Part shown: positions 9,134 through 32,355 of the stretch, in pieces | How the letters are laid out: each line of letters begins with the position of its first letter | Position numbering within the stretch: the first letter of the stretch is position 1 | DNA from: Candidatus Poribacteria bacterium | Lineage (GTDB): Bacteria; Poribacteria; WGA-4E; WGA-3G | Assembly: GCA_022394755.1 (NCBI GenBank) | Contig: JAGFCA010000036.1 | Location: forward strand, 1-64,000 | Reading direction: 5' to 3' | DNA length: 64,000 nt | Program-made: the position numbers and the translations under genes | The notes under the pieces: generated by a model | What the model was told of the DNA's origin: nothing | The model's database searches: none | What the model saw: only the letters and a program-made list of their open reading frames with translations

Positions 9134-12100
9134 GTGAAAAGTGCTATTAGTTCCATTCCACTAATGCTTGTGATGTTATGTCTATCTCTGACTGTGTTTG
9201 GACTTCATCACGCATCTGCAGATCATCATGAAACCCCATTAAAAACCGTAGATTATAATCAACATATCCGTACAATATTATCGGATAATTGCTACGCCTG
9301 CCACGGACCAGATGAGAAAGCACGGCAAGCAAATCTCAGACTTGACACAAAAGAAGGTGCATTCTCTGAACCCAGCGGATATCCTGTGCTCGTTCCAGAA
9401 AAGCCAGATGAAAGCGAACTCTATCTTCGTATCGTTTCTGATGACGAAAATTATAAAATGCCACCCGCAGGATTCAATAAGACACTAACACCTGAACAGA
9501 TTGATCTAATCAAACAATGGATTAACCAAGGGGCAAAATGGGAGGATCATTGGGCATTTACACCACCTGTACGTCCTGCTCCGCCTACTGTAAATAATTC
9601 TGAATGGATTAATAATCCTATCGATGCATTTGTGCTATCACTACTCGAAAACAAAGGTTTACAACCCGCAAAACAAGCGGATAAACGGACACTCATACGA
9701 CGCATTAGTTTTGATCTCACTGGATTACCACCTACACTTGAAGAGATACATCGTTTTCTTGGAGATGATTCACCTGATGCCTATGAGAAGTTGATTGATT
9801 CCTATATGGCGAAACCTGAATATGGGGAACATATGGCACGGTTCTGGTTGGATGTTGCACGGTATGGAGATACACACGGTTTGCACTTAGACAACTATCG
9901 TGAAATGTGGCCCTATAGGGATTGGGTCATCAATGCATTTAACGATAAAATGCCTTTTGACCAGTTTACGATTGAACAGTTGGCAGGTGATCTTCTTACA
10001 CAACCAACAATAGATCAGAAGATCGCTACAGGTTTTAATCGATGCCATGTCACCACAAGTGAAGGCGGTTCAATAGCTGATGAATACTATGTTCGATATG
10101 CTGTTGACAGAGCTAATACGACTGCTACGGTCTGGATGGGATTAACCGCAGGATGTGCACAATGCCACGACCATAAATACGATCCTATCTCACAAAAAGA
10201 GTATTACCAACTATATGCATATTTCAACAATATTACTGAAAATGCGATGGATGGTAATAGAAAGGATTCTCCACCCGTTGTAAAATTACCTACACCAGAA
10301 CAACAGTCTCAACTTGATAGATATGATAGTCGAATCGCTGAATTAGATGCACAAACTAAAGGGGCACTACCACAAGTTGATGCAGCACAAACCGCTTGGG
10401 AAAACAGAATGCCGCAGTGGACATCTGTTAAACCTAACGTTGTTCGTTCTAAAGGTTTAGCTACATTGACAATAAACGAAGATAATTCCGTTCTGGCAAG
10501 TGGTATAAATCCGGATGATGAGGTATATGAGATAATAGCCGAATTACCTGCTGGTAAATGGAGTGCTATTCGATTAGAAGGTCTCACTGATCAATCGCTA
10601 CCAGGAAGTGGTATTGGTCGTAGTGATAATAGTAATGTTGTCCTAACGGGGTTTACTGTTGATATCGCTTCTCCTGCTCATTCTGAACAATTACTGAATG
10701 AGGCAAAGGAATCTGCCACATTGGATGCTGAAGCTGCTAAAGTTAAAGCAGAACAACTTGCTGAGGAAGCAAGAATTGCTGAAGAGGCGAAAAAAGCTGC
10801 AGAAGCAAAAGCACAAGCAGAAGGGGAAGAAGAGGCTGAAACTACTGATACTGCTCCTGAAGAAGCGGAAACTCCTGCTGAAGAAGCAGAAGAAGAAACA
10901 CCAACGGATGTTGACTCTTCACCTGAGGAAGAAGTTGAAAATGCTGATACTCCTCCTGAGGAAACTCCCACTGAAGAAGTCGCCCCTGAAGAGACACCCA
11001 CAGAAACCGATGGCAAATCCACTGAAGAAGCAGAAGAGCAAGCTGAGGAAAAAGATCCTTGGACTCCTATCAATATTGTCCAATCATGGGCAGATTATGA
11101 ACAAGCCGGTGATAATTTTGCTATTGCTAATGCTATAGACGATAAACCTGAAACAGGATGGGGTTTGGAAAGCAATAAAAATCGTGGAAACAACAGGCAA
11201 GCAATTTTCTTGGTTGGAAACCATTTCGGTCAGGAAGGTGGATTGTTAAGGATTCGTTTGAAGCATGAATCAGAAAGCAAAAAACACCATTTCGGTCGAT
11301 TCCGAATTGCTATTTCTGACGCACCTACGATCTATCCTATTGGATCAAAAATAGCACTTGCTAACTGGCATTCTGCTGGTCCGTTTACTGCTGAACACGG
11401 AAACATCGCATTCTATAATGTGTATGAACCAGAAACCAAACCTGTTAATACAGGAGATAAATTCACATTTGGAACACAAACAATAGAATGGAAACAGCAA
11501 ACACATTGGAAAGATGAGGAAGTTCATAACGACATCATCGGTGAGAATAGTGCAACCTATCTTACCCGAAACATCAACTCTGAAACGAAGCAGAAAGCGA
11601 CTCTCTACCTGAGTAGCAACGATGCGATTAAAGTTTGGGTTAATCAAACTGAAGTCCTTGCCAGTAATATCCAACGGGATGCTGCACCGGACACAGATAA
11701 AGTACAAATTCAACTTAACTCAGGAAACAATGTTTTACTCCTAAAAGTTGTTAACTATTCCGGTCCATCCGGTTTCTATTTCAGAATGGAATCAGATGCA
11801 CCTATGGTAACAGCTGACATTGTTGACATCGCAGCGATAGAAAAAAGCAAGCAGAACGGCGAACAACAAACCAAAATTCGGGAATACTATCGTCGAAATG
11901 TTTCAAAAGATAAAGAGTTGAAACAACTGTATGCGGATTTAGGGGATACGCAAAACAAGAGAAATTCCTTAAACAACTCACTTACCACCACATTAGTCAT
12001 GCAGGAACGTTCAGAACCACGAGGCGCGTATATACTTGAACGTGGGGCATACCAACACCGGGGAGAACAGGTCTATCCAACAACACCTGCGGTTTTACCA

Positions 12101-20518: not shown

Positions 20519-21679
20519 ATGCAAGTTTACCATGGTACCGAACAGACACTTAATGCACATACATTCCTCTCAATTTTGCAAGCGGATTATGAAAGCATAT
20601 TCCTGACAAGTTGTATAATTGAAGGTGTATTCATATATTCAGCTCAATTCCCAGAAGAAGTTGATGAACAGCTCATAGTTGACAAGGAAATCGTCTGCAT
20701 CCGTTGTGAGTTTAAAGACACATTCAAATTCGAGAAGACCATTTTTCAAAAAGACGTCTTTTTTGGAAATTCTGTTTTCAATGATGCTGTTCACTTTGGT
20801 GGAACTGTTTTTCAAAATACCTGTGATTTTGGAGAATCAGTATTTGAGGGTCCAGTATTTTTCCGCGGAGCAGTATTTAACGGAATGGCACGCTTTTCCG
20901 ATACCCGTTTTCAGCAGTTGATAGATTTTAATGATGTGTTATTTTCGGAAAATGCAATCTTCAGAAGTGCAATCTTCAAGGAGGCATCACATTTCAACCA
21001 AGGGGTTTTTGGTAAGAAATTAGATTTCGTACAATCACGATTCTCAGATGCTGCTGTCTTCAATGAGGCTGCGTTTCGTGGTGAGACTGATTTCACAGCT
21101 GCACGGTTCGCTGTTGCAGCATCTTATCGAAACGTGATTTTTAATGAAAATACGATATGGCAGTGGTTACGGAACAAGCTTTCTGATAAGCCAGAACAAC
21201 CCACAGAATTCTATTTAGATAGTGAAGACATTAACGGGGTTTTGAACCCTTTTTTCAAACGTTACGTCTCGGATCAACAATTCATACGTGCTTTCAAAGA
21301 AAAGCATCCGTTATGGGCATTAGTTTGGAGATGGAGTTCAGATTATGGTCGTAGTCTCGGTCTTTGGGCACTTTGGTCACTATTAATTGCTCTTTCTTTC
21401 TCTTTTGTATATATGCCTGCACCGACGTGGTTTCCAGCTTGGTTACAGGAAGCTATGCCACAATTCCATCAAGTAACCGTTACCGATGCAAACGGGGACC
21501 TATCATTTTGGAAATCTTTTTACTTTAGTATCGTAACCTTTACGACATTAGGGTTCGGAGACGTAGTCGCAGCAAATACCTCTGCACGTATTCTCGTTAC
21601 CCTGGAAGTAATTTTTGGATATGTTATGTTGGGTGGACTAATCAGTATATTTGCTAATAAACTTGCCAGTAGAAGTTAA
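20519..21679 (+). CDS. Pentapeptide-repeat protein fused to a two-TM potassium channel, copy 1
   Basis: A 386-residue protein. Residues about 60-215 are pentapeptide repeats with Phe at the centre (VFFGNSVFNDAVHFGGTVFQ, then FRGAVFNGMARFSDTRF). A linker (PTEFYLDSEDINGVLNPFFKRYVSDQQFIRAF) leads to a two-transmembrane ion-channel module: TM1 about 283-303 (LGLWALWSLLIALSFSF), a pore helix with the K+ filter TTLGFGDV, and TM2 (VTLEVIFGYVMLGGLISIFA). GFG in place of GYG is common in K+ channels. The repeats probably form a cytoplasmic right-handed beta-helix that senses or docks something. The paralogue lies 1.3 kb downstream. It is likely a non-voltage-gated K+ channel. Confidence 0.88.
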   Translation: MQVYHGTEQTLNAHTFLSILQADYESIFLTSCIIEGVFIYSAQFPEEVDEQLIVDKEIVCIRCEFKDTFKFEKTIFQKDVFFGNSVFNDAVHFGGTVFQNTCDFGESVFEGPVFFRGAVFNGMARFSDTRFQQLIDFNDVLFSENAIFRSAIFKEASHFNQGVFGKKLDFVQSRFSDAAVFNEAAFRGETDFTAARFAVAASYRNVIFNENTIWQWLRNKLSDKPEQPTEFYLDSEDINGVLNPFFKRYVSDQQFIRAFKEKHPLWALVWRWSSDYGRSLGLWALWSLLIALSFSFVYMPAPTWFPAWLQEAMPQFHQVTVTDANGDLSFWKSFYFSIVTFTTLGFGDVVAANTSARILVTLEVIFGYVMLGGLISIFANKLASRS

Positions 21680-22936: not shown

Positions 22937-22965
22937 TATAAACGAACGCGTTTCATAGGAGATTG

Positions 22966-24129
22966 ATGTATATGTTTGAAAAATATGATGAGACGATTGA
23001 GGCGCGTGAATTACTTGATGCATTAGAAGGTGATACATCAGAAATTCTATTGAATAATTGTACAATTGAAGGGGTAGTAGACCTTCATTCAACACAACTG
23101 GAACGTGACGAAAATGATATAATCTGTATCAATAAAACACTCACCTTTAATGGATGCATATTCAAAAACGTAGTGAATTTCAGAACAGTAGTTTTTGAAA
23201 AAGAGATCTCCTTCAGACGTTCTATATTTAAATCTGATATAGACTTAGACGAAGCAACAATACATCTTCAATGTGGTTTTCGCGAAGCAACCTTCCATGG
23301 ACGTGCTAATTTTCATAGTGCTATTTTCTACAAAAGTGCCAGTTTTTGGCGTGCACATTTTGGTAATGTTTGCGACTTACATCAAGCGAAATTTCAGGAT
23401 AATGTAGTATTTCACGAAGCGCAATTTCTGAAGGAAGCAAACTTTACCAATGTACTGTTCAAACAGACCCTTGACTGTACAGGAACACAATTTGCTGAAG
23501 GAATCGTTTTCAATCGTGCGGTATTTTATGGGAGAACACTTTTCACAGGGGCAAAATTTGCTGATGTTGCCTCGTTTAGAGATGTTCAATACACCCCAAA
23601 CACAATTCGGCAATCACTCATAAATAGATTCAACAAGAATTCTAATCCACCTACGGAGTTCTACTTAGATAGTCAGCATGTTGACGAAGTTGCAAATCCG
23701 TTCTTTAAGAGGTATGTTGCTGACCAACAGTTTATTCGTGCATTCAATAAAGCGAACCCTTTATTGGCAGGTTTATGGCGTTGGAGTTCAGACTATGGTC
23801 GCAACCTTGGACTTTGGGCATTTTGGTCAATCTTCATAGCGTTGCTATTCGCAATTGCATACCTGCCATATCCATCTTGGATTCCGGAATGGATGCAGGA
23901 ATGGTCACCACAATTCCATCAAGCGACTGGTAAGTATAGTGGAGAACCATTATCATTCTGGAATTCCTTCTATTTTAGCATTGTCACCTTCACCACACTC
24001 GGTTTTGGAGATGTTGTAGCAGATAATGCAACCGCCCGTTTTCTCGTAACCCTGGAAGTGATCTTTGGATATATGATGCTGGGAGGATTAATTAGCATTT
24101 TCGCAAACAAGCTGGCAAGTAGAAGTTAA
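22966..24129 (+). CDS. Pentapeptide-repeat protein fused to a two-TM potassium channel, copy 2
   Basis: About 387 residues. AGGAG (22957-22961) serves ATG 22966 or ATG 22972, which differ by two residues. The architecture is that of copy 1: Phe-centred pentapeptide repeats (residues about 55-215; FKNVVNFRTVVFEKEISFRR), the conserved linker PTEFYLDSQHVDEVANPFFK, TM1 LGLWAFWSIFIALLFAI, filter TTLGFGDV, and TM2 ending LISIFANKLASRS exactly as copy 1 ends. The channel half is much better conserved between the two copies than the repeat half. This suggests a constant pore with a diverged sensor. K+ selectivity is inferred from the filter. Confidence 0.87.
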   Translation: MYMFEKYDETIEARELLDALEGDTSEILLNNCTIEGVVDLHSTQLERDENDIICINKTLTFNGCIFKNVVNFRTVVFEKEISFRRSIFKSDIDLDEATIHLQCGFREATFHGRANFHSAIFYKSASFWRAHFGNVCDLHQAKFQDNVVFHEAQFLKEANFTNVLFKQTLDCTGTQFAEGIVFNRAVFYGRTLFTGAKFADVASFRDVQYTPNTIRQSLINRFNKNSNPPTEFYLDSQHVDEVANPFFKRYVADQQFIRAFNKANPLLAGLWRWSSDYGRNLGLWAFWSIFIALLFAIAYLPYPSWIPEWMQEWSPQFHQATGKYSGEPLSFWNSFYFSIVTFTTLGFGDVVADNATARFLVTLEVIFGYMMLGGLISIFANKLASRS

Positions 24130-24860
24130 TGTGAAAGATATTTAAAAAATCAAAATAACAAACTGTAATATGTAGGATCTTATATATATTTTGAAATATT
24201 TTTACAGTAAGTGGATTACTTTCTTGTAGATTCTAACTCTGATTTTAAGATTAACTGTTTAGTCCATCCTTCAAAACCATCCGTTCCTTCCCAACCAGTT
24301 TACGCTTAATGAAAGTGATAAAGAGACCCTAAGTAAATGAAGACCTATTCAAGGGTATATATCACTTGGAAGATTCCTCCTGCTTAATAAATATAATTGA
24401 CTTGAATTCTCAAATGTAATATACTTTAATAAACAAAATGTTAATTTTTTATATGTGTTTGTATTAAATTTGAATTCTCTTATTATTTCATATACTAGAG
24501 TATTTCATATTTTATTTTTTTTTGGCTGTTAATCAATACACATTCTGTTCTAATTGAATAACCTAAGTTACCACCTATTTACTTGCATTACATTCAGCTG
24601 AAATGCCAGATGTTGATATAGTCTTTTACTAACACATTACCTCTCTGGGATAAGTAAGTGTCTGAAAAACTGTCAGGAAATGATCAGAATCCGTTAGTAG
24701 CAACTTATGTAAAAAAACGAACAGTAAATAATAGTGTATAAATTGTGAGGCACATTCTTAAAATTATGACAGATGGTGATAATACAAAATCATAATAAGT
24801 AAATAACATTAATATACTAATTTGTAGGAAACTGACTTGTGATAATTAAGGCAGGAATAT
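24130..24860. other. Long AT-rich intergenic region
   Basis: About 730 very AT-rich bases (for example a T-run near 24512-24522) without a gene, tRNA or clear repeat. It separates the channel genes from a cassette of noticeably AT-rich genes and may mark the edge of an acquired segment. No att-like direct repeat was recognised. Confidence 0.45.
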
Positions 24861-25787
24861 ATGGGATATGTCTATATTCTAACGAATAAATCATACAAAT
24901 ACGGTTGGTTAAGTCGAAGACTGTTAAAAATTGGAATGACACAAAAATTACCGAGAGAACGAGCAAGAGAATTAAGTGTTACAGGAATACCAACACCTTT
25001 TGAAGTATCATATTATATAGAATCTGAAAGATATCAAGAAATTGAGAAAGAAATACATAGAAGATTAAGTATTTATAGATCAGAAAAGAATAGAGAATTT
25101 TTTAAATACTCTATAAGGAAAGCAAAAAAACTACTTGATAAGCTTAAATATGAATATTTACAACCGAGTATTCCTAAGGCTGATGATAATGGAAGAGCTA
25201 ACATAAGAGATACTAACCTCTCTTTAGAACCACTTAAAGTCATCGGTGTGGAAAATTATACCACCAAATTTGGTATTAATGGAGAACCTTATTATAGTGC
25301 TGAAAACGGTTTTTATGAAGCAGTAAATGCTCGTGGTATGCCTTCAGCGATACGTCCCCATATTTCAATAATCATTGATAATGAAGAGCTTGAACTACGC
25401 TCATCTCAGGAACATCTTGAAAGCGAAATTGATAAAACTAATTCTGAGCTAACTCAATTAGGATTAGACAAAAGTAATGCAGAAGAAATGATTGGAAATA
25501 TAGAAAAAGAAATGTCAGTTACCCAGCAAACACTAGATGAGTTAAAAGCAATAAATGACTTAGAAACAAGAATTAGTGAAAAAATAGAGAATTGTAATAA
25601 TCAAGAAATTGAATTTGCTGAATTAGAATCCGATTTAAAAAAGTATCCTATCGATGATGACACTGTAAAACATCGCCAATTATCACTATATCCTGTATTT
25701 GGGTTTTTCTGTTTAATCTTATCTTTAGCTCTTTATTTTTTTATATTTCTGCTCTTGATAAAGGTTTTTTTAGCAGTATTAATTTAG
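24861..25787 (+). CDS. Membrane-anchored GIY-YIG-type (T5orf172) nuclease with coiled coil
   Basis: A 308-residue protein. Residues 2-70 are a T5orf172/Mug113-type GIY-YIG domain: GYVYIL (2-7), KIGMT (23-27), R-x-R-A-R-E-L (32-38), TGIPTPFEV (41-49) and EIEKEIHRRL (60-69), followed by REFF. These carry the usual Tyr, Gly, Arg and Glu positions of this nuclease family. A middle region of unknown fold (about 110-165) leads to a long coiled coil (about 170-250). A strongly hydrophobic C-terminus (about 272-308) gives one or two membrane spans, so the nuclease domain faces the cytoplasm at the membrane. GGCAGGA lies before the ATG. It is the first gene of a four-gene cassette. A cytoplasmic-membrane nuclease suggests defence against incoming DNA, by inference. 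Confidence 0.8.
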   Translation: MGYVYILTNKSYKYGWLSRRLLKIGMTQKLPRERARELSVTGIPTPFEVSYYIESERYQEIEKEIHRRLSIYRSEKNREFFKYSIRKAKKLLDKLKYEYLQPSIPKADDNGRANIRDTNLSLEPLKVIGVENYTTKFGINGEPYYSAENGFYEAVNARGMPSAIRPHISIIIDNEELELRSSQEHLESEIDKTNSELTQLGLDKSNAEEMIGNIEKEMSVTQQTLDELKAINDLETRISEKIENCNNQEIEFAELESDLKKYPIDDDTVKHRQLSLYPVFGFFCLILSLALYFFIFLLLIKVFLAVLI

Positions 25788-25798
25788 AAAATACAGAC

Positions 25799-26728
25799 AT
25801 GACATCTTATGCTAGTTTAAACGAACTGTTTGATTCAACTGCCTTTATGAGAGCAATTAATAAAGGCAATATATGGCTCCTTCTATTTCCTGTTTTCCCA
25901 CTTGGACTTGCATTGGTAATTCATCCTATTTGGAATTCTGTTGTCAAACATTGGGAAGTAAAAAATAAATTTGCTGCATCTCTTTCTGCGTTTGGTATTG
26001 TAATATTCTTAATTCTTACATTAGTTTTTGATAGTATACTTGCTCTTCAGATTTCTAAAAAAATACATGAGTCTAAGATAATTATGGGACTTGATACTGT
26101 GAAGTGGACAATTAATCCTATTGATCCACTTACTTGGGATTTGAATATTGTTCTTGTTTTATTTTGTGGCTTTTTTGTTTCAGTATTACTCAGTATTCTC
26201 TTTCATTTTACTCTTGAGATGTGGAAAGAGACTAGAACACAGAATGTAGATGATAGAAATACAATTGTCAGAGAACGAGATAGATTAGAAGCAGAAATAA
26301 GAAACGCAAAGGATGATATAGAGAGACTTTCGAATCAACTGAATAAGGCACAAGAGAATATTGTTGATCTACCTGATTTGGTATTAATTACAGCTCAAAT
26401 AGCTAGCTTAAAAAATGAAGCAATAAATTTTGAAAATCAGGTTGAAGTTGAAAAAAAGAAAATTGCAACTATTCAAACAGATATAATTGAAAAAGATCAG
26501 CAAATTAAAGACTTAAAAGAACGTAAAAACAAAAGGCTTATAGATCTAGTGAAATTAAGAGCACAGATTGATGAATTCTTAGTTGGATGGAATAAGTTTC
26601 TCGCAGCAGAGGGGAATTCAACTGAGGGGAACTCAGCTGAGAACTCGATCGATAAAGCACGAGAGAATGCATATGAAATATTCGATAGACATTTTCAACA
26701 AGGGGGACTGAGATGGGAAAACAAATAA
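25799..26728 (+). CDS. Multi-TM protein with long C-terminal coiled coil, unknown function
   Basis: A 309-residue protein beginning 11 bases after the nuclease gene. Three hydrophobic spans are visible (about residues 24-45, 61-85 and 115-140: LLLFPVFPLGLALVI, ASLSAFGIVIFLILTLVF, LNIVLVLFCGFFVSVLLSIL). A coiled coil of about 110 residues follows (RERDRLEAEIRNAKDDIE, then VEVEKKKIATIQTDIIEKD) and a short acidic tail. The organisation mirrors the upstream nuclease, with coil and membrane segments in the opposite order, so the two coils may pair at the membrane (inference). No enzyme motif was found. Codon use is strongly AT-biased like its neighbours. Confidence 0.75.
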   Translation: MTSYASLNELFDSTAFMRAINKGNIWLLLFPVFPLGLALVIHPIWNSVVKHWEVKNKFAASLSAFGIVIFLILTLVFDSILALQISKKIHESKIIMGLDTVKWTINPIDPLTWDLNIVLVLFCGFFVSVLLSILFHFTLEMWKETRTQNVDDRNTIVRERDRLEAEIRNAKDDIERLSNQLNKAQENIVDLPDLVLITAQIASLKNEAINFENQVEVEKKKIATIQTDIIEKDQQIKDLKERKNKRLIDLVKLRAQIDEFLVGWNKFLAAEGNSTEGNSAENSIDKARENAYEIFDRHFQQGGLRWENK

Positions 26729-27641
26729 TTATATTCCTGCTATCTTTTTCTATATTAATTGCCTGCAACTCAGATACAGAGAAAAAAAAGGAAAACCCAC
26801 AACACAACCAGTAAATTTAATTGTTGTCCTTGATGTTTCTGATCGTCTATTGAAAGATAAATTACCTGGGCAAGAAAGACCAATTGAAAAAGACAAGAAA
26901 ATTGTAAAAGGTATCATAGATCATTATGAAGGTTTCGCCCGTAAAACTTTTTATATTGGAAACCTTAATAGATTAACATTTGTTGTTCCTAAACAACCTG
27001 GTATCCAGAAACTCATACCCCAAGAAACAATAGAAGGGTTAAAATTCTGGCCAACAAATGAAGATCGTGCCAAAGGAGCACCAAGATTCAGAGAAATGAA
27101 GGAAAGTTTAAGTAAATCAGTTGAATCATTGTATAAGTTTGTTGATGATCGTCAGGAGTTTACAGGATCTGATATTTGGGGTTGGTTCAAAGTAAGTGCT
27201 GAAGAATATTTACAACCTAATTATACTAACTATATTATCTGTATTTCAGATGGTTACCTCTATTTAAATCGAATGTATATTCCCTCTCTGCCAAGAAAAG
27301 GGAACAAAACTGCAGTGATACTTCATTCAGTTGTAGAAGAATTCAGTAATGATCCTGATTGGAAAACCGAATTTATCAATGGTGAGTACGGTTTACTGTC
27401 AATTGAGAAAGATTTTAGTGATTATGATGTTAAATTTCTAATGGTTGAAGTAGGACTTCCAACATTACGGGTAAAAGACTTACCAATTCTACGAGCCTAT
27501 TGGGAACCGTGGTTAACAGAAATGGGTATTTCAAAAATGGATTTCATTCATACCCAGGATGATCCTCAAATCGTCATTGAGAGTATAAATGAGTTTCTTT
27601 CACCTATCAAACCATTAGAATCAGGAAATAAAGAAAAATGA
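26713..27641 (+). CDS. Lipoprotein with VWA-like start; needs a -1 frameshift
   Basis: ATG 26713 (GGGGG upstream, 16-base overlap with the previous gene) encodes a lipoprotein leader, MGKQIIIFLLSFSILIAC with lipobox LIAC, then NSDTEKKK. That frame stops at TAA 26812-26814. A second frame is protein-like from about 26793 (KPTTQPVNLIVVLDVSDRLL) to 27641, with no good start of its own. The switch falls at an A8G run (26782-26790) and is -1, giving EKKKGKPTTQPVNLIVV. AAAAAAG in this phase is the classic bacterial slippery heptamer. The product is about 309 residues. VVLDVSDR and YIICISDGYLYLN resemble VWA beta-strands, though DxSDR is not a full MIDAS. It is an envelope protein of the cassette. 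The break may be programmed slippage, mutation or a homopolymer error. Confidence 0.7.
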
Positions 27642-27958
27642 AGAGAATATGGATACCTCAAGCCATTATCATTCCTCTACTGTTGTTAGCACTTAATCCC
27701 GATAACCCCTATGGCTATTATGTTTTTTTGAGATGGGTATGTTGTGCTGTTTTCATATTCTTGGCAATTCATGCCCTATCAAATGGGAAAATTGGATGGG
27801 TTTGGATGTTGGGTGTAACAGGATTAATTTACAATCCTATCATTATTGTTCCTGGTACCCGTGAAATGTGGACGATTCTCAACTTGATTACGATTATCTT
27901 AGCTATCATTTCAATCTTCATACTAAAATCAGATGAGAGCAATGATCACAATCCTTGA
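27638..27958 (+). CDS. Small four-helix membrane protein, DUF6804-like
   Basis: A 106-residue protein overlapping the lipoprotein gene by four bases (ATGA), hence translationally coupled. It is almost wholly hydrophobic with about four spans: IIIPLLLLALNP, YYVFLRWVCCAVFIFLAI, IGWVWMLGVTGLIYNPIII and ILNLITIILAIISIFIL. The pattern PYGYYVFLRWVCC followed by a W-W-G-IYNPI loop and REMW resembles DUF6804 small membrane proteins, recalled from memory and unverified. Function unknown; it is the last gene of the cassette. Confidence 0.7.
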   Translation: MKRIWIPQAIIIPLLLLALNPDNPYGYYVFLRWVCCAVFIFLAIHALSNGKIGWVWMLGVTGLIYNPIIIVPGTREMWTILNLITIILAIISIFILKSDESNDHNP

Positions 27959-28061
27959 AAGTATTAAGATGATTATTTAACAACTGAATTAGGACAAACC
28001 TAAACAGTATACTTCATTTCTATCCATGTAGACATATACTACTATAATTTCAAAACATGTG

Positions 28062-30545
28062 ATGAAAAATCAAGAATGTTCCACCATGCATACAAGGTTT
28101 ATCAAGCAATCTATGCTTGATAAACGAATGGCACAAGATTATAATCTTAACAATATCCATCGAAAGTTGTTTATATTTTACAAAAGTATTTTTATAGCTA
28201 TCCTTCTACTGCTTTTATTATTTCCACACGGATATGCGCAGGAGTCCTCTACCACACCCCCTACAGACTACTTCAACCACATAACCCTATTCTCAGATGG
28301 TAGAATCACCCGATTTACGCATACGCCAATCTCAGTATACATCTCACCTGTCATAAAAGAGAGTCCGTATCATCCAAATATTGTGTATGCCATGAAGAAA
28401 TGGGAACAAGTAGCTAAAGGGAAGATCAAATTTCAAATGACTGATACCTCAACAGATGCAGACATCCGTATTTCATGGGGATATGCCAATCTAATGGATA
28501 TTCATGATACCCGATTAGGCAGTGCAGTATTAAGACGACTTACCAACACGACGGTACAAACTACAGATGTTGATTATCGAGATGAAGGAACTACACCAAT
28601 ACACAGAAAAGAAATTAGTGTGGAGGTAATCCTAATTTTAGAGGGCGAAGAAAATAATAAAGAACTATCCCAAGCAGAGATGCGGACAGTTTGTCTACAT
28701 GAAATAGGACACGCACTCGGTTTATGGGGACACAGTCCTCATCCAGGTGACATCTGTTATCCAACTGCATCAGCACAAACGCCTTCTCAACGAGATATAA
28801 ACACCTTGCTTAGACTGTATAATACACCTATTAATACACCACAACACGATATTGCTATAAAGGAATTAAAGACTGAGATATTGGTAGAACCAAGAGAACA
28901 TTACCCACGTTTTCTACTTGCGACTGTTTATTACGATAAGGGTGATATGGAGTCTGCGATTCATCATTTAAAGGAATGTATGAAATTAAATCAATCCTTT
29001 AAACCTGCAATTGAAAAACTCCTTCAAGCATACAAAAATACTGGTCAATTGGATACTGCTATTGACCTTCTTGAGAAAAGGATTAGAGAGAAACCGAACG
29101 CTGCTGACTATAACACACTCGGAATTTATTATTACAAACAAGGACAGTTTAATACAGCTATCAATGCTTTTGAAAACGCTGTGAAACATGATCCGTACCT
29201 AAAAGCAGCAAAACACAACCTTCATCAACTATTTAGAGAGAAAGCATTTACGGCGATGAAGGCGAAAAATTATTCAGAAGCAACACAAGCTCTTGAGAGA
29301 GTAATACAACTAAATCCTCTGGATTCAAAATCGTATACATTGATTGCTGATGGATATGCACAGGTTGATGACTATGTATCGGCTATAAAATATTACGAAA
29401 AAGCATTAGAGTTGAACCGTGTTAGTCAGTTAACCAAAAGAGGACTGGCAAGATGTTATAACAACTATGGTGTGATGTTAAGAAACAGTCAAAAGTGGGA
29501 TGAGGCAATAACTATATATCGAAAAGCGTTGGATTTACATCCCAAACTTCATATCGCACGAGTAAATCTCATAGATGCCTTTTGGCAAAAAGCAAATACG
29601 TTACGAAATGCAGGTAAGGTGGCAAAAGCCATTGATACTTATCTTGAATTACAAAAACTCAGTCCAGAAGATACCCGAATCTCCAGTTTACTTGGTGAAT
29701 TATACTTAAAAAATAGTAATTTTTCCGATGCTGTTTCTGCTTTTCATAAGGTGTATACAGTTGAACCTGATACACCTCAGGCACGGCACAATTTAATTGC
29801 TGCATACCATCAGTCAGCACACAATTTGATGGATCAACGAAATTATAAATCCGCAATTAATCTACTCCAGAAAGCAGTTGTTGTTGCACCAGACGAACCG
29901 AATATACGTGTTAGTTTGGCACATGCCTTTCAAAATATCGGTGACTATGATAGTGCTCAAGCTCAACTGTCTCAGGTCTTAAAAGACAAACCCAACAATA
30001 AACAGGCATCAACTGAACAGATTAATCTTTATATTCGACATGGGAATACCTTAGTCAAGCAGAAAAAATATACTGCCGCACTCGCTCAATTCACCTCTAT
30101 TCCTGAAGAACAAAGGGATACTGTAATTCACAATATTATTGGTTACCTATATCTGGTACAACGGAAATATTCAGAAGCACTTACTGCTTTTGAAAAGGTT
30201 ATTGTCCTTGATCCACACAATTTCTCAACATATCAAAATCTAAAGTCGCTTGAATCACAAATTTCAAGTCGTCTTTTTGAGAAAGAAAAAGCAGAAAAAC
30301 TAATTCGGACACGTTGTGCATTGGCAATTTGTCTGATGAATCAGCAGCAATTCGATTCCGCACTTACAAAATATAAAGAGGCAATGGATAGAAATTCAGA
30401 AATTCACAGACAATTATTGATTAATACGGGAATAAAATTGGCACGTGGTTTTGAGGCACAAAACGATAATGTTCGCAAGGGAGAAATACAGAGTCTGTTG
30501 AATCAATTGAATCCTGAGGTAGATAGAACAATTAATGATCGGTAA
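28062..30545 (+). CDS. Secreted matrixin-like zinc metalloprotease with TPR repeats
   Basis: About 827 residues. The start is uncertain: ATGs at 28062, 28086, 28110 and 28128 are possible and none has a clear ribosome binding site. The hydrophobic stretch IFIAILLLLLLFPHGYAQ is a signal peptide or anchor; the long N-terminal extension before it favours a later start. The protease domain has the zinc motif HEIGHALGLWGH (H213 onward), where three His bind zinc and Glu is catalytic. The Met-turn expected a few residues on reads GDICYPT, with Cys where Met is usual. About twelve TPR units fill residues 270-800 (for example AADYNTLGIYYYKQGQFNTA), which would bind partners. Probably periplasmic. Confidence 0.82.
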   Translation: MKNQECSTMHTRFIKQSMLDKRMAQDYNLNNIHRKLFIFYKSIFIAILLLLLLFPHGYAQESSTTPPTDYFNHITLFSDGRITRFTHTPISVYISPVIKESPYHPNIVYAMKKWEQVAKGKIKFQMTDTSTDADIRISWGYANLMDIHDTRLGSAVLRRLTNTTVQTTDVDYRDEGTTPIHRKEISVEVILILEGEENNKELSQAEMRTVCLHEIGHALGLWGHSPHPGDICYPTASAQTPSQRDINTLLRLYNTPINTPQHDIAIKELKTEILVEPREHYPRFLLATVYYDKGDMESAIHHLKECMKLNQSFKPAIEKLLQAYKNTGQLDTAIDLLEKRIREKPNAADYNTLGIYYYKQGQFNTAINAFENAVKHDPYLKAAKHNLHQLFREKAFTAMKAKNYSEATQALERVIQLNPLDSKSYTLIADGYAQVDDYVSAIKYYEKALELNRVSQLTKRGLARCYNNYGVMLRNSQKWDEAITIYRKALDLHPKLHIARVNLIDAFWQKANTLRNAGKVAKAIDTYLELQKLSPEDTRISSLLGELYLKNSNFSDAVSAFHKVYTVEPDTPQARHNLIAAYHQSAHNLMDQRNYKSAINLLQKAVVVAPDEPNIRVSLAHAFQNIGDYDSAQAQLSQVLKDKPNNKQASTEQINLYIRHGNTLVKQKKYTAALAQFTSIPEEQRDTVIHNIIGYLYLVQRKYSEALTAFEKVIVLDPHNFSTYQNLKSLESQISSRLFEKEKAEKLIRTRCALAICLMNQQQFDSALTKYKEAMDRNSEIHRQLLINTGIKLARGFEAQNDNVRKGEIQSLLNQLNPEVDRTINDR

Positions 30546-31549: not shown

Positions 31550-31768
31550 TCAACTCTTCTCAGAATTTCGTTGATCCGTACTTAATAGCGGGTCAGACTT
31601 TGTAAGTTCTCCATTTGGTAACTCATAATAAAGGTGTCCATTGAAATCATAGACATTCGGAATTCCCTTCTTTCGATTTTCTTCTTGAGCCTTTTTTACT
31701 GCACGATTGGCAACCTGTCTTATTTTTTCTGACCATTTTCGAGTTTCAACACTTAGTTTTTCTTTCAT
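31550..31768 (-). CDS. Small partner gene of the zeta-like kinase (putative antitoxin)
   Basis: A 72-residue, lysine-rich helical protein. ATG 31768 is preferred because GGAG lies six bases upstream; a GTG at 31780 would overlap the kinase stop. The N-terminal helix (VETRKWSEKIRQVANRAVKKAQEE) is followed by a short beta segment (VYDFNGHLYYELPNGEL). Small genes of this kind directly follow zeta-like kinase genes in many bacteria and are presumed partners. No experimental function is claimed. Confidence 0.65.
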   Translation of the reverse strand: MKEKLSVETRKWSEKIRQVANRAVKKAQEENRKKGIPNVYDFNGHLYYELPNGELTKSDPLLSTDQRNSEKS

Positions 31769-31779
31769 TGATGACTCCA

Positions 31780-32355
31780 CTATTTAATATCTTGAATGAA
31801 AAGTTCAAAACAGTCTTCATTTGTTATTGTAAAATTACTTCCTTCTCCTAAGGCTACTTCCTTAGATTGTTCACCGGAATTGTAAATCAAATTCCATCTC
31901 TCAACCTGATTCTTATAAATATGCCAGAAGTTATGTTTGCTTCGATAGAAGCGACGAATTATGTCTTCCGTTGGCACATGATGTCCTCCTAACCTTACCC
32001 GGTTTCTTACACGAGCAATACATGTTTCAGGTGTTTTAAGAAATATAAAAACTATAGTAACAATATACCCCGCATTTCTTAATTCAGAAATAATTTTCTG
32101 GAATCCTTTACCTGCGAGAGTCACTTCGACAATAAAATCCTTTTCAGTCTGGATAAGAGTATAAATTTCTTTAAAAAAGAGTCTCCCCGCTTCTATTCGT
32201 ACTGTATGAAACATGTCTGAGGAAGTTACAAGTCTTTCTGCTATTGCATCAGCACTAATATACACCAGATCTTCCGAACTCTGGATATATTCATTGGCAA
32301 ATGTAGTTTTACCTGAACCATTCGGTCTAGCGACGATAATAGCATTTTTTGACAA
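31780..32355 (-). CDS. Zeta-toxin-like P-loop kinase
   Basis: A 191-residue protein of the zeta toxin/UDP-GlcNAc kinase-like family. Landmarks are the Walker A region VARPNGSGKTTFANEY near residues 8-23, ISADAIAERL (substrate and aspartate region), VEVTLAGKGF, and the arginine-rich lid CIARVRNRVRLGGHHVPTEDIIRRF. Typical members have GPNGSGKT; here the first Gly is Arg (AGA), a one-base change that may weaken nucleotide binding. It is transcribed with the small gene downstream, a layout like toxin-antitoxin pairs. Whether it is toxic is unknown. Confidence 0.8.
   Translation of the reverse strand: MSKNAIIVARPNGSGKTTFANEYIQSSEDLVYISADAIAERLVTSSDMFHTVRIEAGRLFFKEIYTLIQTEKDFIVEVTLAGKGFQKIISELRNAGYIVTIVFIFLKTPETCIARVRNRVRLGGHHVPTEDIIRRFYRSKHNFWHIYKNQVERWNLIYNSGEQSKEVALGEGSNFTITNEDCFELFIQDIK

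Follow-up and report, generated by a model that had tools for sequence, protein, structure and literature searches.

The closest described system to the locus analyzed here is SNIPE (PD-lambda-1), a membrane-bound GIY-YIG nuclease that meets phage DNA on entry and was reported only in 2026; it is reported to cut phage DNA at injection (PMC13190303). SNIPE is described as a single protein with an N-terminal single transmembrane (TM) segment, DUF4041 and a C-terminal nuclease, in which the nuclease and DUF4041 are both required and which becomes toxic without the TM segment (PMC13190303). Here, we analyzed a stretch of 64,000 nucleotides (the window; positions 1 to 64,000 of contig JAGFCA010000036.1, assembly GCA_022394755.1) from a Candidatus Poribacteria bacterium. 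A preliminary description of this DNA, made from its letters and open reading frames (ORFs), had proposed a four-gene, undescribed candidate defence system in which a membrane-tethered nuclease works with envelope partners. The core of that idea stood and the gene count did not, as the real unit has three parts: a nuclease, a membrane chassis and a predicted secreted protein with a VWA fold. We give roughly even chances to the reading that this membrane-tethered nuclease module is a defence of Poribacteria in which foreign DNA is cut at the membrane.

A nuclease, a membrane chassis and a VWA-fold partner

Profiles of the VWA protein and of the chassis were searched against 84 genomes of the phylum. 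The VWA protein was found in 23 of them, in 25 copies, and strong matches to the chassis (E 3e-21 or better) occurred in 22 of these 23 genomes and in 0 of the 61 others. Weak matches to the coil region only (E 1e-6 to 8e-4) were obtained in G050 (a contig-end fragment) and in six further genomes. A chassis gene or its remnant lay directly upstream of the VWA gene, on the same strand, in 23 of the 25 copies, and the other two VWA genes stood at contig ends. The remnant is that of stretch L060, in which insertion-element-like ORFs (9369-10717; a transposase by eye) sit inside the module, between the chassis remnant and the VWA gene. The distribution was patchy: 5 of the 18 genomes of the window's genus carry the module, and 61 of the 84 in the phylum lack it. 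On a short contig, we also observed a protein of 198 residues (P0123) in which a GIY-YIG head runs straight into the final quarter of the VWA sequence; it resembles an internal deletion of the module and is an independent link between the nuclease and VWA genes.

The T5orf172/GIY-YIG domain named in the preliminary description was recovered in the window's head by Pfam (T5orf172, E 4.4e-15; 56.5 bits against a cut-off of 20), and the same family scored above its curated cut-off in L057, L069, L077, and L078. Across the window and 26 module stretches fetched from outside it, 25 heads were visible. Twelve were separate GIY-YIG genes (125 to 186 residues) directly upstream of a chassis of 498 to 539 residues, 8 were fused GIY-YIG heads, three of them split or disrupted (window, L066, and L060), and 5 were another domain (L058, L059, L063, L064, and L067; split in L064). 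This other domain matched the PD-(D/E)XK family HSDR_N_2 (PF13588) at 6e-10 to 6e-9 (36 to 40 bits against a cut-off of 25) in L058, L059, L063, and L067, and at 24.2 bits, just under the cut-off, in L064. In the protein collection, we found 122 chassis homologues, a number that includes the window's own piece and is to be read as at least 122, since they were drawn from the best 7994 candidates by shared words. A PD-(D/E)XK head (HSDR_N_2) was carried by 86 of them, a GIY-YIG head by 17 and neither by 19, the last being pieces or chains without a visible head, where a separate head gene would escape view.

Both kinds of head have kept their characteristic residues. G2, Y5, K23-I-G25, R34, H66, R78, and E79 of the GIY-YIG heads, which we take to be active-site positions, were invariant in 32 of 32 rows (the window and 31 relatives). 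For the PD-(D/E)XK heads, E-x-K, Q, and YL were invariant in all 79 rows; these rows were picked by the letters ADV, which fixed the D beforehand. On a chassis tree of 100 rows, built with a quick method and excluding the 19 headless homologues, chains without a motif-found chassis start, cores of less than 380 residues and the split window copy, head type changed at least 7 times (6 of these forced by starred branches), compared to a mean of 24 for shuffled labels. Judged from the sequences, a head is passed on within a lineage for some time before it is exchanged, and this has happened repeatedly. Between L057, with a GIY-YIG head, and L059, with a PD-(D/E)XK head, the flanks showed 76 to 83% DNA identity and the chassis plus VWA genes 73% (62% and 72% at the protein level), and no alignment was obtained over the head; the gap also spans the preceding gene of L057, which is missing there in L059. 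That unrelated nucleases replace one another on a single chassis strongly indicates that nucleic-acid cutting is the module's job, and from the nuclease families we infer that the target of the heads is DNA.

The chassis was predicted to have four TM helices and two short periplasmic loops, with the two coiled coils and the nuclease on the cytoplasmic side. The VWA protein, lipid-anchored or free, is predicted to lie on the opposite side of the membrane, and its body adopts a VWA (Rossmann-like) fold in the predicted structure. A full metal ion-dependent adhesion site (MIDAS) consists of DxSxS, T, and D; in this family, D39, S41, T149, and D178 were invariant in 32 rows and the last Ser of DxSxS is Arg43, which leaves the site incomplete. 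The family profile gave a single hit (E 0.12) when searched against solved structures, and no family of Pfam, NCBIfam, PHROGs, or PADLOC covers the window's VWA body. The same four collections returned only coil-type matches for the window's chassis piece, in agreement with Pfam and PADLOC scans of relatives, and over the window's proteins NCBIfam and PHROGs matched coils or the head only. A fold search with the full membrane model listed matches to long helices and coiled coils, and we claim no novel fold for it. Matches to LmuB, JetC, and PbeC, together with weak matches to DUF4407, were taken as coil likeness.

We propose that the tether and the coiled coils would keep the nuclease idle or off the chromosome. 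The VWA protein would bind an envelope event of infection, be it an adsorbed virion, the injection machinery or a disturbed wall, and would signal via the periplasmic loops of the chassis, upon which the nuclease would cut DNA as it reached that part of the membrane. The head could be exchangeable because only cutting would be asked of it, recognition residing in the chassis and the VWA protein. A bolder possibility, which we put forward tentatively and would ourselves lean against, is that this represents a new kind of bacterial immunity, in which an inner-membrane chassis and a secreted VWA sensor recognize phage at the envelope while unrelated heads are swapped in place, like blades in a tool holder, so that recognition and cutting evolve independently. 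A second, unrelated architecture with a secreted VWA partner and exchangeable heads would suggest that guarding the membrane against incoming DNA is a general strategy, and the natural head swaps would offer ready-made tests of which part decides recognition.

The copy in the window

The first two ORFs of the window's locus (24861-26728) had been described as two membrane genes. The second piece has nine matches, seven of which are longer (363 to 539 residues) and have the shared part preceded by sequence resembling the end of the first piece, and five homologues (P0002, P0003, P0209, P0211, and P0212) contain the sequence of both pieces in one chain. Three of these (P0209, P0211, and P0212) are intact single chains of 622 to 628 residues, in which the GIY-YIG head is followed by a coiled coil, the TM region, and another coiled coil. 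Two separate membrane genes are thereby ruled out, and on this comparison of sequences the two pieces are one gene, frame-shifted at a T-run (Table 1). The VWA gene is also broken. Its signal peptide and Cys lie in a different frame from the VWA body, with the switch at an A-run, and its nine closest homologues besides the window's own (P0011 to P0019) are 304 to 307 residues long. Of the lipoprotein with VWA-like strands in the preliminary description, the VWA part held by predicted fold and the single open frame did not.

Each gene is broken by a frame shift, so the window's copy is probably non-working, barring sequencing error or slippage: it is probably dead or decaying, or the breaks are homopolymer sequencing errors. 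Intact copies exist elsewhere. Sequencing or assembly errors at the homopolymers were considered, and the flank genes, which are of similar length in congeners, were set against an assembly error. We also considered that the two homopolymer runs might be sites of slippage or programmed frameshifting, which the intact one-frame relatives make less likely. An intact pair, P0212 and the VWA homologue P0024, is probably located on one contig, since the same longest contig of 329,173 bases is given for both.

The fourth ORF, which encodes a DUF6804 membrane protein, had been counted as a member of the cassette. By blastp, it was found beside none of the 26 module stretches fetched from other places than the window. 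A family search found DUF6804 in 8 of the 84 genomes, and in the three that were readable with a label (L161 to L163) its neighbours were other genes. We judged DUF6804 to be a bystander rather than a part of the module, and the four-gene cassette was rejected on these two findings; nuclease, membrane protein, and VWA protein travel together, and the fourth gene does not travel with them. In L161 (5018-5807) and L162 (5395-6172), DUF6804 follows 1 base after a gene of 157 to 161 residues, which may be its real partner.

Other features given for the locus at the outset were confirmed. The ORFs are tightly packed, with an 11-base gap between the first and the second, an ATG at 26713 that overlaps the second ORF by 16 bases, and a 4-base overlap at 27638/27641. 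The region is very AT-rich (GC content of 30 to 35% in 24 to 28 kb, compared to 37 to 41% in the adjoining 2 kb on each side), and the roughly 730-base empty stretch upstream is present (Table 1). The left flank gene is kept in 17 of the 18 genomes of the window's genus and the right flank gene in 16 of 18. No Rfam family matched at gathering score in 24000-28200, and no tRNAs were found in the window. The genome from which the window comes comprises 5.19 Mb in 228 contigs.

Two further observations concern the surroundings. The left flank gene forms a paralogous pair with the gene at 20519-21679, both being Pentapeptide_3 and Ion_trans_2 fusions that are kept across the genus. On the minus strand, 4 kb from the module, 31550-32355 encodes a P-loop protein that by eye is zeta-type toxin-like, with a small gene beside it.

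Table 1. Features of the module locus and its flanks in the window
Feature	Position	Strand	Description or evidence
Left flank of variable site: pentapeptide-repeat protein with ion-channel domain	22963..24129	+	Pfam Pentapeptide_3, Ion_trans_2
AT-rich stretch without credible gene, upstream of module	24130..24860	.	731 bases, ORF-poor
Membrane nuclease gene, first piece	24861..25787	+	GIY-YIG/T5orf172 head (residues 2-95), linker, coiled coil, first TM segment
T-run, reading-frame change in membrane nuclease gene	25736..25742	+	Sequence; homologues are one chain across it
Membrane nuclease gene, second piece	25799..26728	+	Remaining TM segments and C-terminal coiled coil; joined to first piece in homologues
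VWA gene, first piece	26713..26814	+	Signal peptide with lipobox-like Cys; stop after 33 residues (translation)
A-run, reading-frame change in VWA gene	26782..26789	+	Relatives of 304-307 residues are single frame
VWA gene, second piece (VWA-fold body)	26796..27641	+	
DUF6804 membrane protein, neighbour outside module	27638..27958	+	PF20619, 2e-19
Right flank of variable site: matrixin-like plus TPR protein	28059..30545	+	Pfam

Variable sites and competing explanations

The site between the two flank genes differs among relatives of the window's genome. It comprises about 350 bases with no credible gene in G036 and G045. In G042 (L153 6466-7778), it holds ThsB (PADLOC 6e-84; Pfam ThsB_TIR 2e-6) followed by PDC-M50A (6e-38); no ThsA was noted in this stretch with its ThsB-type TIR gene. 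G043 has small ORFs and an FRG-TPR protein there (L152 8385-9818; FRG 8e-14), and G040 has two very large genes, the scanned one without a PADLOC match. For genomes with the left flank on another contig, the right flank side carries type III restriction-modification genes in G038 (MTase_III 4e-48; ResIII 5e-8), two large genes in G039, and genes that are mostly housekeeping-looking by eye in G035 and G044. Near the window's site in congeners, we also observed a PLD-SNF2 helicase-nuclease (L155 11635-14001; PADLOC C3a139 3.6e-74) and a type ISP restriction enzyme (L156 7657-10797; Type_ISP_C 1.9e-91).

A second site lies between a 268-residue gene and a cysK-like gene, which were both found within 25 kb on one contig in 20 of the 57 family genomes searched. 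These 20 sites held the module in 4 cases, a ZorA/ZorB-type pair in 8, and Hsp70-type genes in 2, and 3 were empty (186 to 190 bases); G082 has a lone PD-(D/E)XK head, and G052 and G063 have other genes. The eight pairs in eight genomes rest on member counts and a reading of ORF starts, with Pfam run on one; they sit in a longer operon and matched ZorB3 and ZorA3 of PADLOC at 4e-25 and 3e-17 at best. In one of the four module-bearing genomes (G047), an Hsp70-type gene is present at the site as well. Hsp70-like genes with companions were seen there in L166 and L171 (HSP70 1e-46 in L171), and in L073 (4778-7324) they adjoin the module. A membrane operon of about nine genes was seen at this site (L165 1288-13092, L169, L170, L174, L175, and L178, with variants in L167/L168 and L173). 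Its products include a tubulin-like protein (Tubulin_2 3.9e-9) alongside a MotA/ExbB-type long-coil protein and one of OmpA/MotB type, and it may be a Zorya-like system with a tubulin-like gene.

ThsB-type and ZorA/ZorB-type families are known for phage defence. Relatives hold genes of these types at the two sites. Strict co-occurrence of the parts, exchange of nuclease heads and the defence-type genes that relatives have in the corresponding places lend support to the defence reading, and the analysis points to two Poribacteria chromosomal sites where systems like this module alternate with ThsB-type and ZorA/ZorB-type genes.

Several points weigh against defence. At the window's site, some relatives carry genes without a defence match, or housekeeping genes, and the ZorA/ZorB matches at the second site may be other MotA/MotB-type pairs. 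At other sites, the nearest neighbours of the module are mostly housekeeping-looking by eye. When 95 neighbours were pooled and scanned with PADLOC at 1e-10, the matches were only scattered; among the 25 of 74 families listed were a PbeA-type helicase (4 members), TmtA (2), and one match each of RtcR-type, type I specificity and Cas12f. The pooled scans give the best 25 of 74 and of 38 families, with the matching member not named, and the neighbour scan and site occupancy figures stand without a random-site comparison. Furthermore, of the 25 chassis genes with a visible head, those of the window, L060, L064, and L066 (4 in all) are split or disrupted, so the module is often lost. A scan with a single sequence of genome contigs yielded 0 of 62 candidate stretches, and the alignment scan used instead, with one genome per GTDB species, found 22 loci, all 22 in Poribacteria. 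Searches for the VWA protein and the chassis in viral contigs returned 0 and 0 relatives, and searches for the VWA protein only in plasmid and phage records returned 0 and 0. Finally, the contact between chassis and VWA protein and the triggering of the nuclease are steps that we infer.

The best-surviving alternative, which we nevertheless regard as unlikely, is abortive infection: on sensing damage to the envelope, the VWA protein would cause the nuclease to be released or activated, and the nuclease would destroy all DNA, the cell's own included, and kill the infected cell. Two unrelated heads with conserved active sites would be in keeping with a toxin-like effector, copies are often split or disrupted, as for costly genes, and SNIPE without its TM segment is reported to be toxic (PMC13190303). 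However, a permanent tether exceeds the needs of a suicide enzyme, and SNIPE, the nearest studied design, is reported to cut incoming phage DNA (PMC13190303). It is also rather improbable that the target is not phage and is instead other incoming or contact-delivered DNA (plasmids, conjugation, or transformation) or a rival bacterium's envelope attack. The patchy presence in the genus and the variable sites would fit a general accessory conflict function, but nothing singles out plasmids or contact, and the ThsB-type and ZorA/ZorB-type genes that fill the same sites belong to phage-defence families.

We consider it improbable that the module has a housekeeping function in the envelope that some lineages have retained, for example to trim DNA that is being taken up naturally or to remove DNA caught at division. 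Restriction to one phylum and the housekeeping-looking neighbours at several sites would suit it; yet the module is missing from most genomes of the phylum, including the majority of the 18 in the window's genus, its sites alternate with defence-type genes, and repeated exchange of the nuclease head would be unusual for a housekeeping enzyme. That two separate membrane proteins, a lipoprotein and DUF6804 act together as a four-gene complex is very improbable indeed: the spacing of the four ORFs in the window and the occurrence of GIY-YIG as a separate gene in other genomes speak for it, but the window's split falls at the first TM segment and not at the head/chassis boundary used by the true split forms, the VWA body is out of frame with its signal peptide, and DUF6804 accompanies no other copy.

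Comparison with known systems

Taking the module as a membrane-tethered nuclease that cuts incoming DNA, we compared it with described systems; no description of the module itself was found in the open-access literature. Like SNIPE, the module is predicted to comprise a membrane-anchored protein with a GIY-YIG nuclease on the cytoplasmic side, and the PD-Lambda-1 models of PADLOC match the window's head (8.7e-13), over their nuclease end (positions 356-449 of 496 in the profile). The C-terminal coil of L067 also matches the coil of the PD-Lambda-1 model weakly (3.9e-5). DUF4041 was detected neither in the window's pieces up to E 1 nor in the proteins of ten relatives up to E 0.1. Furthermore, set against the SNIPE layout, the module differs in having its nuclease N-terminal (fused or separate), followed by four predicted TM helices, and two coiled coils, as well as a VWA partner gene and, in most chassis homologues, a PD-(D/E)XK head.

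Within PADLOC, the best match of the GIY-YIG head was to PDC-S57, which belongs to the candidate single-gene families (1.2e-24 in the window and 7.5e-30 in L057). These models, of 212 to 245 positions, match the head and little beyond, whereas the chassis and the VWA protein are left uncovered; no paper naming PDC-S57 was found in the open-access literature. The PD-(D/E)XK head, with its conserved E-x-K, Q, and YL, matches HSDR_N_2, the domain with which R subunits of type I restriction enzymes begin, in four of five copies scanned. Unlike such a subunit, the PD-headed chain is fused to a membrane chassis, and no helicase or methylase domain was found in it. Zorya couples a membrane protein with long cytoplasmic coils to DNA cutting, and the likeness of the module to it is one of general plan only, ZorA/ZorB-type pairs occupying the same second site in other genomes. 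The module's partner is a VWA fold, in contrast to Zorya, and no MotA- or MotB-type domain was among the Pfam and PADLOC families listed for module proteins.

Our best reading, by analogy, is that the module would work like SNIPE yet is not SNIPE, given the lack of DUF4041, the reversed order of domains and the VWA partner. We therefore rate it as a new variant of membrane-bound nuclease defence, with the bolder case for a new kind of system applying if the VWA protein is its sensor.

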